Below are positions 20,196-26,457 of a DNA stretch of 35,308 bases, in pieces. The stretch is from a virus. Position numbers and translations under genes: made by a program. How positions within the stretch are numbered: position 1 is the stretch's first letter; every line of letters starts with the position of its first letter. The notes below the pieces were generated by a model, which saw nothing but the letters and a program-made list of their open reading frames with translations, was not told the origin of the DNA and did not search any database. The stretch spans positions 1 through 35,308 of IMG/VR virus record IMGVR_UViG_3300024940_000006; one strand, written 5' to 3'.

Positions 20196-20421
20196 ATTGT
20201 TTTTTCCTATCTTCTTGGTATTGTTGGCATTTCACACATCGCATAATCCCCGGTAGCGCTTGCCGTCTTGCCTCCGGTATCTCTTCTCCACATTCCAGGC
20301 AATCCAGCGCAGTTTGCGCGCCAGGAGCGGTTTTTAGCTCTGCAAATCGTCGCTGCTGCGTTTTAATGGCACGCTCTCTGGCAATCATTTCAAGCTCTTG
20401 AGCACGGTCAAACTGATCCAT
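20182..20421 (-). CDS. C4 zinc-finger protein, TraR/DksA family
   Basis: The 79-residue product starts at ATG 20421, which overlaps the Rz stop (TGATG). It has a helical N-terminus (MDQFDRAQELEMIARERAIKTQQRRF) and a CxxC…CxxC zinc finger (C41, C44, C62, C65; CLECGEEIPEARR…RCVKC). Such short TraR-type proteins bind RNA polymerase through the secondary channel and are common in Mu- and P2-like phages. It overlaps the next gene by 14 bp. A TTG one codon earlier is possible but unlikely. Confidence 0.88.
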   Translation of the reverse strand: MDQFDRAQELEMIARERAIKTQQRRFAELKTAPGAQTALDCLECGEEIPEARRQALPGIMRCVKCQQYQEDRKKQYATR

Positions 20422-20963
20422 CAATCAATCTTTCTATCAGCGATTAGAATCGCCTGACATGCACTCAGCTGCTCGGTTACTTGGTCGGCGAGGCGGGCTT
20501 GTCCGATAAGAAATTCAGCAGATTGTTGAGAAAGTTCGGCTGTTGTTTCTGCATTACTGCCGCTGGTACTGGCGCCAGCCTGGCTGGTTCCACCTGCACA
20601 ATCTGTGGGGTGCATTTTGGTTGGGATGCGCAAGCGCAGAGCGCCAGCGCGCAAATCAGCAATAACAGCATTGGCTTTAATTTCATTTTTACGAGTCTCC
20701 TGATTGAATTTAAGCGTTAACTCTGCCATGTCCTTAACGCGCTTTTGCTCTTGGTCACGCTTTTCGTTTTGCAGTTTCAGCAGCCTTTCACCCAGTGCAG
20801 CCACCTTTGCATTTTCTGCAATAGCATTGCGGCCACGCTCAACATCCACGCCAAAGCTGTATGCCTTGAACAGCATGCCGACGAGAATAGCCAGCAATAA
20901 AACAGGCATTAGCCATTTAGGTAGCGCTGGAAATACCAAGGTTTTAAACCAGTCAGTGATCAT
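20421..20963 (-). CDS. Rz-like inner-membrane spanin subunit
   Basis: The 180-residue protein has an N-terminal anchor (WLMPVLLLAILVGMLFKAYSFG, about 17-38) and then a long periplasmic coiled coil (KVAALGERLLKLQNEKRDQEQKRVKDMAEL). This is the layout of i-spanin Rz. A lipoprotein gene is embedded in another frame, as expected for Rz/Rz1 pairs. It follows the holin-like gene with a 4-bp overlap. It would fuse inner and outer membranes at the last step of lysis. Confidence 0.86.
   Translation of the reverse strand: MITDWFKTLVFPALPKWLMPVLLLAILVGMLFKAYSFGVDVERGRNAIAENAKVAALGERLLKLQNEKRDQEQKRVKDMAELTLKFNQETRKNEIKANAVIADLRAGALRLRIPTKMHPTDCAGGTSQAGASTSGSNAETTAELSQQSAEFLIGQARLADQVTEQLSACQAILIADRKID
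20477..20686 (-). CDS. Rz1-like outer-membrane spanin lipoprotein, nested in Rz
   Basis: A 69-residue frame lies wholly within the Rz gene in a different frame. It encodes MKLKPMLLLLICALALCAC followed by ASQPKCTPQ. The best lipobox is L-C-A-C with acylation at Cys19; Cys17 is an alternative. The mature part is short and Pro-rich (VEPARLAPVPAAV), typical of Rz1. Size, lipobox and nesting together make the call strong. Confidence 0.87.
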   Translation of the reverse strand: MKLKPMLLLLICALALCACASQPKCTPQIVQVEPARLAPVPAAVMQKQQPNFLNNLLNFLSDKPASPTK

Positions 20964-21748: not shown

Positions 21749-22183
21749 TCAAAATTTACTCCAAACATTATTTATTCTAGCTTCATCATATTTATAGCTG
21801 ATTGACTGTCTGCATTCATATTTAAAGTCAGGCTCGCTTGAATCTTTTGGCGCATCTATCCCATCAATTAAATTTAATATTCTCGCCGTCTCGTTCCTCA
21901 ACTGCATATAACAAGGCTCTGTATTTGTCTGCTTTTCCTCTGGCCATGCCTTTAGCACTTTTTGCAATTTAGTCACTTGCATCAAAGCATTTTGTGATTC
22001 ACTGCGCATAAAGTTGCTTTGCCAACCAAAAACCACATCGAGTGAAACTTCTTTTAAATTTTCATTTGTAATAAATAACGGTGTTATATTTTCTGCATTT
22101 TCCTCCGGAATTGATTGAATTTCCTGATCACCACACCCAATTAAGGCTAGCGCTACTACACCTACTAAAATAAATTTATTCAC
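21749..22183 (-). CDS. Hypothetical lipoprotein (accessory gene)
   Basis: The 144-residue product has a lipoprotein signal MNKFILVGVVALALIGC with lipobox LIGC (acylation at Cys17). The mature part is acidic and helical (MQLRNETARILNLIDGIDA; two further Cys in EPCYM and YECRQ could pair). I recognise no family. It is AT-richer than the phage structural genes and has a strong AGGGGG ribosome-binding site. Together with the next gene it forms a two-gene unit between mor and lysis, the kind of place where lysogenic-conversion genes sit. A superinfection-exclusion or envelope role is only a guess. Confidence 0.75.
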   Translation of the reverse strand: MNKFILVGVVALALIGCGDQEIQSIPEENAENITPLFITNENLKEVSLDVVFGWQSNFMRSESQNALMQVTKLQKVLKAWPEEKQTNTEPCYMQLRNETARILNLIDGIDAPKDSSEPDFKYECRQSISYKYDEARINNVWSKF

Positions 22184-22194
22184 ATTTACCCCCT

Positions 22195-22656
22195 TTAGTA
22201 TCTGCGTCTTGTATAAGAAATAATACGATCATTTTTCACGTTTATAATATAAAAAGTACCTCGATAAGTCTCAACTAATCCACTAGTTGTCATAGTGTCT
22301 GTAATAAATTCAGGCTCTTCATTGCACTGTTCAAATCGTGAGAATTTCATCCCTACTCGAAGTGCCCTAAAGTCTTTTCCACATTTTCTTTTCTGTGCGG
22401 CAGATTCTTCTCTATCTACTTGCTCAACAGTTTTCTGCTCTCCTGGCGCACAAGGTCTTTCCTCAGAGTGCCATGAACCATTTTCATCTGTCCATTCTTT
22501 AGCACATGGGATTTTATGCTCCATCGTTTTACATGGGACTTCGATAAACTCTAAGCCATGCGCCCCTTTACTCATTACTTCACAATGCTCTTGGTCTGCA
22601 TAGCCATACGAGGTGAAGATTAATGCCACTGTACTTATTAAAATCAACCTTTTCAT
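22195..22656 (-). CDS. Hypothetical secreted Cys-rich protein, C-terminal SmpA/BamE-like pattern
   Basis: The 153-residue product has a signal peptide (MKRLILISTVALIFTSYGYA, cleavage likely after Ala20). The mature N-terminal half has several Cys (EHCEV, VPCKTM, IPCAKEW, RPCAPG, KRKCGK), suggesting disulfides in the periplasm. The C-terminal part (LRVGMKFSRFEQCNEEPEFITD…YRGTFYIINVKNDRIISYTRR) resembles the strand-helix pattern of SmpA/OmlA-type (BamE-like) domains. It has an AAAGGGGG ribosome-binding site and lies 11 bp from the lipoprotein gene. Function is not known. Confidence 0.72.
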   Translation of the reverse strand: MKRLILISTVALIFTSYGYADQEHCEVMSKGAHGLEFIEVPCKTMEHKIPCAKEWTDENGSWHSEERPCAPGEQKTVEQVDREESAAQKRKCGKDFRALRVGMKFSRFEQCNEEPEFITDTMTTSGLVETYRGTFYIINVKNDRIISYTRRRY

Positions 22657-22685: not shown

Positions 22686-23093
22686 TTAAAACAGATTTTC
22701 CTGCACCTCGTCACAATCCATATTTTTTTGCAGCTCGCGGATCCACCGCACGGTCACATCCCATTCACGCGCTAGCTGGCTTTGTGATTTATCGCTACGC
22801 CGTATTTTTTCATTACGCACCGCGCGCAGCGCATCTTCACACTTGGGGATCTCCAGCGCCTCACCGCCATAGGCTTTAGTAAGTTTGATAAAGCTTTCAG
22901 CGCCAATAATCTTGCACAGCACATGCTCTGGTTTGAATTCTGCCGGCACCCACATGCTGGTGCCTTTATAGTGATCAACCAGTTTCAACGTGTCAGCCAG
23001 GCCGATGATATTTGCAAGGTCTTGCACAATGAAGGGCAGTATTTTCTCATCAATATTGATGGTGAGAATGTCAGCTGTTTTGATTTTAACCAT
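22686..23093 (-). CDS. mor: Mor-family transcription activator
   Basis: The best start is the ATG at 23093 (MVKIKTADILTINI, AAAGG upstream, 8-bp overlap with gemA), giving 135 residues. An N-terminal dimerisation part (LPFIVQDLANIIGLADTLKLVDHYKG) is followed by the Mor/C block (KIIGAESFIKLTKAYGGEALEIPKC). A C-terminal helix-turn-helix ends the protein (RNEKIRRSDKSQSQLAREWDVTVRWIRELQ). Mor and C activate the Mu middle and late promoters by binding dyads near -35. Only one family member is seen here, so it is the natural candidate to bind the GCGGAA-N4-TTCCGC dyads upstream of lysozyme, I and gp43. Confidence 0.92.
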   Translation of the reverse strand: MVKIKTADILTINIDEKILPFIVQDLANIIGLADTLKLVDHYKGTSMWVPAEFKPEHVLCKIIGAESFIKLTKAYGGEALEIPKCEDALRAVRNEKIRRSDKSQSQLAREWDVTVRWIRELQKNMDCDEVQENLF

Positions 23094-23493
23094 TGCTTGC
23101 CTTTGGTTTAGCTTGTTGCTTTTTAACCAGCGCTGCAATAATGCCGCGCATCTCGGCCGGCTTGCACCATTGCAACTTTTCACGTTTGTACATTTGCTTG
23201 GCAATGCCATCTGCATAAGGCCAGCTCAGTTGCATATCAGCCAGCAACGCGCCAATCTTGCTGATCAACGCCTGCTTGGCCTTGGCGACATCTGGCGCGG
23301 TTTGCGTATTCTTCCATCCACGCGCTTTCATGTGGTTGAGCACAGCAACGCGGCCTGCATAATCCAGCTCACGGCTACTGGTGACACGTGCCACGGTAAA
23401 CAACATGGAGCGATAGGTTTCATCATCCATACCCAGCGCTTTTTTAGCGATGTGGATCATCGCCAATTCAGAGTTTCTGATATCAGGCTTCAC
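23086..23493 (-). CDS. gemA: GemA-like regulatory protein (DUF1018, Mu gp16)
   Basis: The 135-residue product starts at a GTG (23493) with AAAGG six bases upstream, overlapping the RT stop. Family blocks are IHIAKKALGMDDETYRSML (about 13-31), ARVTSSRELDYAGRVAVLNHMKARGW, and LQWCKPAEMRGIIAALVKKQ. In Mu, GemA modulates host gene expression and DNA topology. It is normally next to mor, and here the DGR has been inserted directly before it. Confidence 0.9.
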   Translation of the reverse strand: MKPDIRNSELAMIHIAKKALGMDDETYRSMLFTVARVTSSRELDYAGRVAVLNHMKARGWKNTQTAPDVAKAKQALISKIGALLADMQLSWPYADGIAKQMYKREKLQWCKPAEMRGIIAALVKKQQAKPKASNG

Positions 23494-24853
23494 ATTTAGC
23501 CTTTCTGTATATCTTTGTTAAATCCTTGTTAACGCAGTAACCTTTGCCACGCATAACATTAGCAATAGTTGCGCGGTCTTGATGGCTACTGGATGCTTGT
23601 CCAATTAGTCCAAAGTAGCTATTTGCTACTTCAAATAACTTATCTTTCTTTGTAGCGTTAATTCGGCTTACTGCCTCATTAACAGTGCGTTTGCGTGTAT
23701 ATCTATTCCAAGGTTTAATCACTTGGCCTACAAAATCCACCCCACGATCAACAGGCTGCAGGATTGTTTTCTTTGGATTTAGCCTGGCATTTAATTTATC
23801 TTGCAAGAAAGCATTAATTTCAATCAATGCAGCATTAAGCCATTGTGGTGATTCATGCAGCAGAATGAAGTCATCTACGTAGCGCACATAATGCTTTGCA
23901 CCTATCTTGTGTTTGATAAATTGGTCTAGATCATTCAGATAGACGTTGGCAAAAAACTGTGAGCTAAGATTGCCAATTGGCAAGCCTAAATGGCTTGGTT
24001 GTTCGGCTAAACGCTTATGTTCTGGCACTAAATTCAGCTTGGTTGCTTCACCACGTAACTCATAGTTTTTGCGTGGATCGTGAAACAAGATTAAATCGGC
24101 TAGTGACAACCACCAAGGCTCATGTATCTTCTTTGCAAGCTGCTTGTGTAATACGTTCTTATCGATGGCCACAAAGAAGTTGGCTAGGTCACCCTTTAGA
24201 TAAAACGTTGGCTTGCTCCAGTTTTGAGTAGCGCTGCGTATCTTTTTTTCTAGCCTTTTTACGGCATACAGCGTGCCACGTTCGGGTATGCATGCGCAGC
24301 TGTCTGCGATAAATGATGCATAAAACCTAGGTGAAACGTGGTTATAAAATAGATGGTGGACGATGCGATCTCTAAAATCTGCAGCCCACACTTCACGTGG
24401 CTTTGGCCTCGTGATAACAAAGCAAATGCTTTTACCTGGCAAATATGTGCCAGATTTTATGTCTGTATATAAATCAAACAAATTGCGCTCTAGATTCAGT
24501 TCAAAAGCTAGAGCGCTCTCTGAGTTTCGTTTGTGTTTTCTGCAATCAAAGTACGCTTGGACTAATTCTGCAAACGTAAAGTTGTCGTTATGATCTGCGG
24601 ACAGCGCGAGCGCGGAGCTCGCTAGACTTGTTATTGTTGTTCTGGTTTCCATTATTGAAGTTCTGATACCAAGCCCAGCCTGCTGTATTTTGCTATCTAC
24701 GTCATCTTGTCGAAGGGCTGTATTTAAATCAGCACCGATCAACGAGGCAACTGCGTTAGACCTAACCTGATTCCTATCAGTGGTATCTACGATGCGCATG
24801 GCGGTGACCTTTTGAGTCAGCGGCAAAACCAGATTATTAAATCGTTCAGTCAT
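23483..24853 (-). CDS. DGR reverse transcriptase
   Basis: The product has 456 residues. RT motifs are visible: motif A GDLANFF (Asp222), LPIGNLSSQFFANVYLNDLD (291-310; the LPIGN-x2-SQ block is typical of DGR RTs), catalytic YVDD at 325-328, LNPKKT at 359, then a C-terminal thumb-like region (VNSYFGLIGQ… in part). The ATG at 24853 has AAGG seven bases upstream and follows avd by 13 bp. The template repeat encodes residues about 57-87 of the frame, so the RT core begins right after it (NFTFAELVQAYFDCRKHKR). There is no later ATG before the core except one inside the template repeat. The stop overlaps the gemA start. It copies template RNA with errors at adenines to diversify the target genes. 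Confidence 0.94.
   Translation of the reverse strand: MTERFNNLVLPLTQKVTAMRIVDTTDRNQVRSNAVASLIGADLNTALRQDDVDSKIQQAGLGIRTSIMETRTTITSLASSALALSADHNDNFTFAELVQAYFDCRKHKRNSESALAFELNLERNLFDLYTDIKSGTYLPGKSICFVITRPKPREVWAADFRDRIVHHLFYNHVSPRFYASFIADSCACIPERGTLYAVKRLEKKIRSATQNWSKPTFYLKGDLANFFVAIDKNVLHKQLAKKIHEPWWLSLADLILFHDPRKNYELRGEATKLNLVPEHKRLAEQPSHLGLPIGNLSSQFFANVYLNDLDQFIKHKIGAKHYVRYVDDFILLHESPQWLNAALIEINAFLQDKLNARLNPKKTILQPVDRGVDFVGQVIKPWNRYTRKRTVNEAVSRINATKKDKLFEVANSYFGLIGQASSSHQDRATIANVMRGKGYCVNKDLTKIYRKAKCEA
24594..24683 (-). repeat. DGR template repeat (TR), 90 bp
   Basis: Read on the minus strand in the target frame it encodes AGWAWYQNFNNGNQ and then a run of Asn, followed by KSSELRARAVRR; the Asn codons (AAC/AAT) are the mutable sites. 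The 34 bases at the low-coordinate end are identical to both variable repeats. It lies inside the RT reading frame, where it is read in another frame. In the target frame it is flanked by stop codons, so it is not itself a target gene. Confidence 0.95.
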
Positions 24854-24866
24854 AGGGCCTTAACCT

Positions 24867-25217
24867 TTATGAAACAGACGATGCGGAGCGGCGCCAACCA
24901 TTGGCTTGCTTGCCAATACTACCTGTCAACTCAATGGCCTTAGCATATTGGCCTGTTGAGATTAAACGCTTGTCGCGTGAAAGTCTTAATAGCAATTCGC
25001 ATACTTGAAGTCGCTCTATAAGCGAGATTAAATATCCTGACTTTTCACGTGAGACGTTAGCCCTAAATATCAAAGTGACAATCTCAACGCATTCATCACG
25101 TAGTTTTCCGCCTATGCTTTGTTTAAAATCACGTGGCATATTCTTGGCAAGGTCAGTGATGACATCGAGTAAATCGTATGCCACTTTGTAAATAGGTAAG
25201 GTAGTGTGATTGGCCAT
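24867..25217 (-). CDS. avd: Avd, DGR accessory variability determinant
   Basis: This 116-residue helical protein is of the four-helix-bundle (S23-like) type. It has LPIYKVAYDLLDVITDLAKNMPRDFKQSIGGKLRDECVEIVTLIFRAN, then SLIERLQVCELLLRLSRDKRLIS, and a basic C-terminus (GKQANGWRRSASS). Avd forms a pentameric basic barrel that binds the RT and template RNA and is needed for retrohoming. It lies between target 1 (13 bp) and the RT (13 bp), the classic DGR position. No clear ribosome-binding site is seen, so coupling to the upstream gene is likely. Confidence 0.92.
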   Translation of the reverse strand: MANHTTLPIYKVAYDLLDVITDLAKNMPRDFKQSIGGKLRDECVEIVTLIFRANVSREKSGYLISLIERLQVCELLLRLSRDKRLISTGQYAKAIELTGSIGKQANGWRRSASSVS

Positions 25218-25230
25218 AAAAATAAATAAA

Positions 25231-25701
25231 TTACTGAATTACTGATAATCTGCGGACAGCGCGAGCGCGGAGCTCGCTAGACTTGTTAGTGTAGTGCTGG
25301 GCCCCATTACCGAAGCCCTGAGACCAAGCCCAGCCTGCATTGTTAGCATGTGTTTCAGATGACCAATAAGCCTCTTCTTTAAACTCATCTTTCATAAATT
25401 TATAGAGCATGGCTTGCTCACATCTGTCTGGCAGATGCCCGCCAATACTTTCTGCCCAAGCGACTTGATCACTCCAGCTTGCGCGCTCACTTTCACCTGG
25501 CAACAAAATAGTATGCTCAGCTTTAAGGCCATCAGCACTAATCATGCAGCCAACCCACTTTTCGCCATCGTTAAGATCAGGCATTGATACTGAAATTGGG
25601 AATGCATTCTCAATTAACTTGCCTGATTCATACCGTGCAATCATGCTTTGCAGTTTGTTTTGCTGGCTTTTAATTTCTTCTAATGTGATTGTTTGTGACA
25701 T
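25231..25701 (-). CDS. DGR target protein 1 with C-type-lectin-like variable domain
   Basis: The product has 156 residues. An N-terminal helix (TITLEEIKSQQNKLQSMIARYESGK) is followed by a DUF1566/FGE-sulfatase-like C-lectin fold (EHTILLPGESERASWSDQVAWAESIGGHLPDRCEQAML … EEAYWSSE). The C-terminal variable repeat encodes residues 122-151 (AGWAWSQGFGNGAQHYTNKSSELRARAVRR). Compared with the template, residues 127, 129, 131, 134, 136, 137 and 138 have been changed. The final SSELRARAVRRL strand is intact. No signal peptide, lipobox or membrane helix is present. It is unlike tail fibres in size; the ligand is unknown. Confidence 0.92.
   Translation of the reverse strand: MSQTITLEEIKSQQNKLQSMIARYESGKLIENAFPISVSMPDLNDGEKWVGCMISADGLKAEHTILLPGESERASWSDQVAWAESIGGHLPDRCEQAMLYKFMKDEFKEEAYWSSETHANNAGWAWSQGFGNGAQHYTNKSSELRARAVRRLSVIQ
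25249..25338 (-). repeat. DGR variable repeat VR1, 90 bp
   Basis: It is the same length as the template repeat. By direct base comparison it has 11 substitutions, every one at a template adenine (coding strand), and none at C, G or T. The last 34 bp are identical (initiation-of-mutagenic-homing type end). The stop codon of target 1 lies just beyond. Confidence 0.95.
25261..25277. other. Hairpin GCGAGC-N5-GCTCGC in the conserved end of VR1 (also in VR2 and TR)
   Basis: A perfect 6-bp inverted repeat with a 5-nt loop lies inside the conserved 34-bp end (also at 25761-25777 and 24606-24622). Hairpins close to the variable repeat are known to assist target recognition in some DGRs. Here it is inside the repeat and not after it. 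Because it is also in the template, it cannot by itself distinguish template from target. Confidence 0.5.
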
Positions 25702-25720
25702 TTAAATAACTCCAAAATAA

Positions 25721-26089
25721 CTAAATAATTGAATGACTAAATAGGAACTCTGCGGACAGCGCGAGCGCGGAGCTCGCTAGACTCGAGATAGTGTTGTACT
25801 GGTAGCCATTAGTGAAGCCCTGAGACCAAGCCCAGCCTGCTTCTCTTTCATGCGTAGTATTTGACCAGTACCAATCTTTCTTGAATTGGCCTCTGCTTTT
25901 ATCAAACATTAAAACCTGTTCTACACGGTTTGGCAGGTCTCCGCCAAGTTGTTTTGCCCAGTCCATAGCGTCTTGCCAATTGCCATCATCTTTATCGCCT
26001 GGCAGTAAAATTGAGTGCTCACCAGTACCGTCTGGATTGATAATCGCGCCTAAATACACTTCACCTTCTTTTAACTCTGGTTGCTGCAT
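25721..26089 (-). CDS. DGR target protein 2, frameshifted inside its variable repeat
   Basis: The product is 122 residues from ATG 26089 (MQQPELKEGEVYLG), seven bases after AGGAG; an ATG two codons earlier is too close to that site. It has the same fold as target 1 (EHSILLPGDKDDGNWQDAMDWAKQLGGDLPNRVEQVLMF … DWYWSNTTHEREAGWAWSQGF) without the N-terminal helix. In the variable repeat 2 extra nucleotides after the mutable codons change the frame. The normal …SSELRARAVRR end is replaced by SSLASSALALSAEFLFSHSII. Without the 2 nt the gene would end …RRVPI at a TAG (25737-25739). The present protein probably misfolds or lacks the last strand. Confidence 0.88.
   Translation of the reverse strand: MQQPELKEGEVYLGAIINPDGTGEHSILLPGDKDDGNWQDAMDWAKQLGGDLPNRVEQVLMFDKSRGQFKKDWYWSNTTHEREAGWAWSQGFTNGYQYNTISSLASSALALSAEFLFSHSII
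25749..25840 (-). repeat. DGR variable repeat VR2, 92 bp (2-nt insertion)
   Basis: It has nine clear substitutions relative to the template, all at template adenines. Where the template has aacaag before the conserved tctagcgag, VR2 has atctcgag, 2 nt longer. The 34-bp conserved end is identical to the template and VR1. Confidence 0.93.
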
Positions 26090-26133
26090 CTTCATTCTCC
26101 TTTTAAATAATCACGGGCGTTAAAACCATCCCC

Positions 26134-26159
26134 TATAGCCCATTTGTTAACGGGCTATA
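26134..26159 (-). terminator. Hairpin between HU gene and DGR cassette
   Basis: TATAGCCC-N10-GGGCTATA forms a perfect 8-bp stem after the HU stop codon. The following minus-strand sequence has only a short T run. It may separate DGR expression from the early transcript; the 38 bp left before target 2 show no convincing promoter. Confidence 0.5.
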
Positions 26160-26175
26160 AGTGAGAGTTTTGGCC

Positions 26176-26457
26176 TTAAGCCACTGCATCCTTCAATGCT
26201 TTTAAAGCGCTGAAATGCGGCACTTTCTTTTCAGGAATGGCCAAGGCTTCGCCTGTTGCTGGGTTGCGCCCCGTGCGTGCTGCGCGTGTTTTAACACTCA
26301 ATTTGCCAACACCTGGCAAAGTCACTTCCCCACCTTTTTCCAGCTCAGCCTGTGCAATTTCACCAGCTTTATCCAGCACAAACTTGATTGCAACTTTTGA
26401 AACACCTGTGTTGTCATTGCTTTCAGCAATGGCATTAATTAATTCTGCTTGGTTCAT
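26176..26457 (-). CDS. HU-family DNA-binding protein
   Basis: The 93-residue product has the HU/IHF fold: MNQAELINAIAESNDNTGVSKVAIKFVLDKAGEIAQAELEKGGEVTLPGVGKLSVK, then the beta-arm motif RTGRNPATGEALAIP with its tip proline, and a C-terminal helix. HU bends DNA and in Mu assists the transpososome; Mu relies on host HU, whereas this phage carries its own. The ribosome-binding site is AGGAG. It is 115 bp from gam. Confidence 0.93.
   Translation of the reverse strand: MNQAELINAIAESNDNTGVSKVAIKFVLDKAGEIAQAELEKGGEVTLPGVGKLSVKTRAARTGRNPATGEALAIPEKKVPHFSALKALKDAVA

Follow-up and report, generated by a model that had tools for sequence, protein, structure and literature searches.

The stretch of DNA analysed here (the window) comprises positions 1 to 35,308 of the IMG/VR virus record IMGVR_UViG_3300024940_000006 and carries a genuine and complete diversity-generating retroelement (DGR) with a reverse transcriptase (RT), the accessory variability determinant (Avd), a template repeat (TR) and two targets of lectin fold. 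In DGRs, the RNA of the TR is copied in an error-prone manner by the RT together with Avd, and the resulting cDNA replaces a variable repeat (VR) in a target gene, a process called mutagenic retrohoming. The cassette, like the other features of the window for which coordinates are given below, lies on the minus strand (-), and reads from 26095 to 23483 in the order target 1, target 2, avd, TR and RT, followed by gemA and mor. Target 1 is an open reading frame (ORF) of 124 amino acids (25721-26095) with a lectin-like product (phrog_4245, E 8e-4), target 2 (25231-25701) encodes 156 amino acids with a C-type lectin fold resembling Lcl_C/DUF1566, and a TR/VR search located one VR in each of them, VR1 at 25749-25840 (92 bp) and VR2 at 25248-25338 (91 bp). 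They are followed by avd (24867-25217; 116 amino acids; PF22296 (bAvd), E 2e-14; phrog_3206, E 4e-33), by the TR (24593-24683; 91 bp), which overlaps the 5' part of the RT frame, and by the RT ORF itself (23483-24853; phrog_1423, E 1e-116; RVT_1), whose start is uncertain (24853, or 24652 inside the TR). A preliminary description of this DNA had announced an RT with the motifs YVDD and LPIGN-x2-SQ as well as Avd, and both were found, the motifs in the form YVDD and LPIGNLSSQ, the latter invariant in 12 RTs. It had also recognised the TR, but gave its length as 90 bp and overlooked its overlap with the RT frame; similarly, the two tandem target genes, their C-terminal VRs and the lectin fold of target 2 held up, but a frameshift in VR1 had escaped notice.

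TR and VR2 differ by 11 mismatches over 91 bp, all 11 of which fall on template adenines (27 A in the TR; binomial p 1.6e-6), and the substitutions between TR and VR1 are likewise adenine-directed, next to an insertion of 2 nt in VR1. The same bias is seen in the clade of related DGRs, for which RT and RT-alignment scans together with phage records yielded 139 loci whose RT is at least 57% identical to that of the window: their 297 VRs show 4006 mismatches, 94.8% of them at TR adenines, with an adenine share of 30.4% among the TR letters. For pairs of loci whose RT DNA is at least 90% identical, which are not independent of each other, 619 of the 650 VR differences between homologous targets lie on TR adenines, and the differences between VR2 of the window and the VRs of its 95%-identical relatives are at template adenines throughout. 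Compared with target 2 of the related loci L007 and L008, that of the window shows 15 differences in a 101-bp VR alignment, all at TR adenines, versus 12 differences over 370 positions outside the VR, where the protein is nearly unchanged; the divergence between the target-2 proteins of the window and L008 is almost confined to the VR. This adenine-specific divergence, together with the turnover of VRs between related phages, suggests that the DGR is active and its diversification ongoing.

The insertion in VR1 puts target 1 out of frame over the last ~20 residues, with loss of the last conserved strand, which reads ELRARAVRR in target 2. A different (+1) frameshift is found in the target 1 VR of the 95%-identical relative L003 (L003:8220-8311), and target 1 is in frame in L007 and L008. 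As 7 of the 297 VRs in the clade are frameshifted, such events are rare accidents. Those of the window and L003 are perhaps by-products of mutagenic homing, and frameshifts of this kind might in principle be overwritten in another round of homing.

In the RT tree, the clade forms one side of a branch with a support of 98/91 and joins the DGR RTs. The tree contained DGR RTs exclusively, namely those of the clade, others of greater distance and those of seven named controls, with no group II intron or retron RT as outgroup, and the placement among DGRs is therefore based on the tree in combination with the motif and TR/VR evidence. The preliminary description had named an RT outside the DGR RTs, or VRs that never vary in related prophages, as findings that would speak against its proposal; the RT groups with DGR RTs and the VRs do vary between related viruses. 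The named hosts of the clade loci are almost all Beta- and Gammaproteobacteria. Two loci from metagenome-assembled genomes, L027 (Verrucomicrobiaceae) and L035 (Xanthobacteraceae), fall outside these classes, and binning errors or host jumps are possible. A search of 72,556 plasmid records gave no match to the clade RT at 60% identity or above, and carriage of this RT clade by plasmids was rejected on these grounds. All VRs of the clade are on the RT strand. Usually there are two targets in tandem, and some loci have a third one near the CI repressor: among the 95 loci with at least 9 kb of upstream sequence, 60 have two VRs, 32 three, two four and one none.

A structured RNA of the Rfam family RT-15 (RF03018) was detected directly 5' of the TR at 24681-24883 (135.1 bits versus a gathering threshold of 82; E 9e-33). 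Besides the window, a scan of 20 loci detected RT-15 in 15 of 15 loci of the clade and in one of five at a greater distance, which makes it a marker of this DGR branch; where the TR of a locus had been located as well, it starts at the end of RT-15. Rfam lists RT-15 merely as an RNA gene, whereas its position here suggests that it is probably the 5' structured part of the DGR template RNA. The long RT ORF starting at 24853 overlaps both RT-15 and the TR; with a start at 24652 instead, where the TR contains an in-frame ATG, the RT would have 389 amino acids. Among the 133 loci with a TR and enough upstream sequence, 36 have an in-frame stop within the TR and 99 an in-frame ATG inside it, so that the RT may start within the TR, in the window at 24652. 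For the same reason, we did not adopt a conserved N-terminal protein domain of the RT as default reading; in-frame starts solely upstream of the TR are found in 11 loci.

The window contains the families MuA, MuB, Gam, GemA and Mor in early-to-middle order and thus represents a Mu-like transposable phage. The preliminary description had called it a Mu-like prophage, of which the first part stands; the window consists of one IMG/VR virus record and has no bacterial flanks. As had been described, the cassette lies between a gene for an HU-like DNA-binding protein (26176-26457; PF00216) upstream and a GemA-like gene (23086-23493; PF06252) downstream, the latter being followed by the gene for a Mor-like activator of middle genes (22686-23216; PF08765). 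At the RT stop, the RT and GemA ORFs overlap by 11 nt, which fits a common transcript of cassette and gemA, and the coding layout of the cassette is consistent with a single transcript. A promoter scan revealed no promoter-like sites on the minus strand and fewer matches than in shuffled sequences, and the GC profile has no sharp step at the cassette edges. Between the HU gene and target 1, there is a 13-bp stem-loop (26132-26161), which is kept in L003, L007 and L008; in the four closest Mu-like relatives, the hairpin is located 36-42 nt 5' of target 1 with small base changes. Clade-wide, a hairpin signal was obtained for 10 of 114 loci compared to 43 of 570 random windows, and a conserved terminator before target 1 was rejected as a clade feature, being confined to these four relatives. 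Beyond mor, the interval up to the lysozyme gene contains two small ORFs (21749-22183 and 22195-22656) whose N-termini resemble signal peptides or those of lipoproteins (e.g. MNKFILVGVVALALIGCGD); with hardly any family match or none, they are candidates for lysogenic-conversion or envelope proteins. ORF 20477-20686, which has a lipoprotein-like signal, is nested in ORF 20421-20963, and the two resemble Rz/Rz1 spanins. The end of the record truncates the fibre ORF (2-544), and the distance between the start of this ORF and the RT is 22.9 kb rather than about 24 kb as previously estimated.

We assessed the placement of the cassette across the clade by searching 44 whole clade virus records for the tail families PF13550 and PF04865, tyrosine integrase and Mu transposase. 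A tail marker was detectable in 27 virus records; it is 7-47 kb (median 29 kb) away from the RT, or at least 5.7 kb if the records are taken as circular, and on the strand opposite to the cassette in 24 of the 27; the three same-strand cases, L003, L115 and L121, are Mu-like. Of all 139 loci, 77 are followed by an integrase cluster and 47 are preceded, on their own strand, by the gene for a CI-like S24 repressor, and genes for C5 methylase, YqaJ, ERF, ParB and DUF2303 recur around the loci. The Mu-like carriers (the window, L003, L007, L008, L061, L115, L121 and L149) have the cassette after MuB (or MuA) and before Mor or the late genes, mostly before Mor where the contig reaches far enough, with insertion points that vary between after HU, after Gam and before Gam. 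Since the Mu label has to change five times on the RT tree, with well-supported branches forcing at least three of these changes, Mu-like phages probably gained the clade cassette several times, in each case ending up with it in the early block, with the reservation that some of these changes could be losses. The clade is a widespread and so far little-described branch of phage DGRs sited with early and lysogeny genes, not tail genes.

This placement bears directly on the role of the targets. Phage DGRs are commonly interpreted as a means of changing host range, with mostly tail proteins as targets (PMC8144416, PMC10743442), among them the viral targets of clades 1, 4 and 6 of Roux et al. 2021 (PMC8144416). 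By analogy, the targets studied here might be receptor-binding or other virion proteins that are encoded out of place and become attached to the tail at assembly, with the DGR switching tropism as in the Bordetella phage BPP-1. Tropism is the commonest role for phage DGRs (PMC8144416, PMC10743442), and the targets share their family of lectin fold with surface binders. Yet the cassette is remote from the tail marker in 27 of 27 records and mostly on the other strand, the targets are small and contain no recognised phage-attachment domain, and the control phage DGRs mostly lie directly behind tail genes. On the basis of its location, we rejected a tail-fibre role as the leading view and regard an assignment of the targets to the virion as unlikely. 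Tail, baseplate or long late genes immediately precede the control DGRs of a BPP-1-like phage, BalMu-1, ACA1, VHML and Bise; in Bacteroides phage F2, for which the record is partial, a gene for a putative outer capsid protein and hypothetical genes precede avd, and a plasmid DGR control follows a SUMF1-family gene. The preliminary description had suggested a role other than classical fibre switching, and the contrast between these controls, mostly behind tail genes, and the entire RT clade in early or lysogeny blocks bears this suggestion out.

The target proteins themselves are predicted to be small, free-standing proteins of C-type lectin fold with no obvious secretion signal. An AlphaFold2 model of target 2 (15 sequences; predicted local distance difference test score (pLDDT) 90.9) consists of an N-terminal helix and a C-type lectin domain, for which Foldseek returned the C-terminal domain of Legionella Lcl (8q4e, E 3.7e-5) as best PDB match. 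Lcl was also the single, weak match of a PDB sequence search with the target profile and, in the form of its C-terminal domain, the top structural match of a Pseudomonas-type target with a weaker model (pLDDT 76). Target 2 matches PF07603 with an E value of 9e-7, but under the curated cut-off. The median length of the clade targets is 200 amino acids, the middle 90% ranging from 121 to 272 amino acids. As Lcl is a Legionella adhesin and bacterial DUF1566/Lcl_C proteins include surface adhesins, the cassette might be a lysogenic-conversion module that provides the host with a variable surface or secreted adhesin. This seems highly improbable to us, as hydropathy rules flagged no lipobox and 14 weakly signal-like N-termini among 296 clade targets (16 of 296 were transmembrane-like), and the N-termini of the window targets are devoid of a hydrophobic stretch. 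With the PADLOC defence models, none of the targets gave a match and the RT matched general RT and defence-associated reverse transcriptase (DRT) models only; membership of the targets in a defence system was rejected accordingly.

In 13 of 13 loci in which both a remote target and the repressor were recognised, the remote target starts 0.5-2.3 kb after the repressor gene on the same strand. The corresponding region of phage lambda is occupied by rexAB. The proximity to CI in these loci, as well as the position of the cassette ahead of gemA and mor in Mu-like phages, would also fit targets that regulate the lysis-lysogeny circuit of the phage itself, e.g. variable antirepressors or repressor-binding proteins that retune immunity. 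However, no DNA-binding or antirepressor domain was seen in the targets, a binder of the phage's own conserved repressor scarcely needs continual diversification, and the loci with two targets and no remote one are the majority of those with enough upstream sequence (60 of 95). We therefore consider such a regulatory function to be very doubtful.

We favour, with some confidence, the explanation that this is an active DGR which diversifies intracellular binders made early in infection or in lysogeny. According to this explanation, an RNA containing the TR, and probably the RT-15 structure, would be copied by the RT with Avd, errors would arise at template adenines, and the cDNA would replace the VRs at the 3' ends of the two nearby target genes. 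Since the clade cassette sits in the early or lysogeny block, the resulting variable lectin-fold binders would most likely be produced intracellularly, at an early stage of infection or by the lysogen, and would there encounter a changing protein partner, most likely from rival phages (superinfection exclusion) or from host defences (counter-defence). Early or lysogenic expression, a cytosolic location and a variable partner are all inferred. Several points weigh against this explanation. The early timing is deduced from gene order, and the hairpin upstream of target 1 could be a terminator or attenuator of the early transcript in the subgroup of four relatives. Target 1 may be dispensable in the window and L003, as it is frameshifted in both. 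The signal-peptide and transmembrane calls were made by crude hydropathy rules and no trained predictor, and proteins encoded away from tail genes can still enter virions. Finally, the class of the partner, rival phage or host defence, is a guess, as the targets have no match among the defence models.

A more far-reaching version for the clade as a whole, which we put forward tentatively and rather doubt, is an antibody-like intracellular recognition, in which lysogens would hold randomised cytosolic binders of invading phages or host defence proteins and thereby gain a diversified superinfection immunity. DGR-based immunity, including cytosolic VR proteins and, by analogy, superinfection exclusion, was proposed in a 2023 study (PMC10053308), and DGRs, DUF1566 targets, multi-target DGRs and their frequency in Pseudomonas and Burkholderia were already known (PMC6642488). 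We found no paper that states early-region placement as a rule for this clade or ties RT-15 RNA to DGR templates, which does not exclude an earlier description. If our explanation is true, temperate phages carry a large monophyletic set of DGRs with small, probably intracellular targets linked to repressor, recombination and early genes, and targeted hypermutation would serve a second purpose in phages. RT-15 would provide a quick genomic marker for this clade, and the isolated clade phages Magia, Cruim01, LPPA56, Haboob and QDWS make the idea of a second purpose testable.

The DGR of BPP-1 comprises a target with a VR, Avd, a TR and an RT in the order mtd-avd-TR-brt, and the target has a C-terminal lectin fold. 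The window cassette has these parts, their order, the adenine-specific divergence and the C-terminal lectin fold in common with BPP-1, but differs from it by its location in the early block, its two small targets, an RT in a separate branch and the RT-15 RNA. In the record of the BPP-1-like phage, the RT has long late-block ORFs before it and a lysozyme-family gene after it, and an arrangement of the BPP-1 type, in which the target is the fibre or receptor-binding gene of the tail module, is not what we found in the window with its distant fibre ORF. The Mu-like Bacillus phage BalMu-1 also has a DGR RT in a Mu-like phage, but there it is in the classical tail position, behind XkdT/baseplate genes and before holin and amidase genes. 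Burkholderia phage Magia shares the RT clade, Avd, small tandem lectin targets and the early-region location with the window; its layout is of the lambda-like repressor-integrase type with a tyrosine integrase and not Mu-like. The announcement of Magia described a DGR with the short target genes 47 and 57 and suggested a change of host range as one role (PMC7883833); our TR/VR search added gene 46 (L013:12163-12627), annotated as hypothetical, as a third target. The Shewanella phage vB_Sb_QDWS (OK094664.1, L014) and 'Hujiaoplasma phage zrk29-1' (OP650936.1) are both 47902 long with identical match scores and are probably one genome of doubtful host assignment (stated hosts Shewanella versus a Tenericute). 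Together with the Pseudomonas phages Cruim01, LPPA56, Haboob and phPA-G, vB_Sb_QDWS has the same RT clade and adenine-biased TR/VR pairs as the window and a non-tail location of the cassette, between repressor and integrase or beside methylase and recombination genes, but these phages are not Mu-like and the Pseudomonas-type targets are longer (about 200 amino acids).

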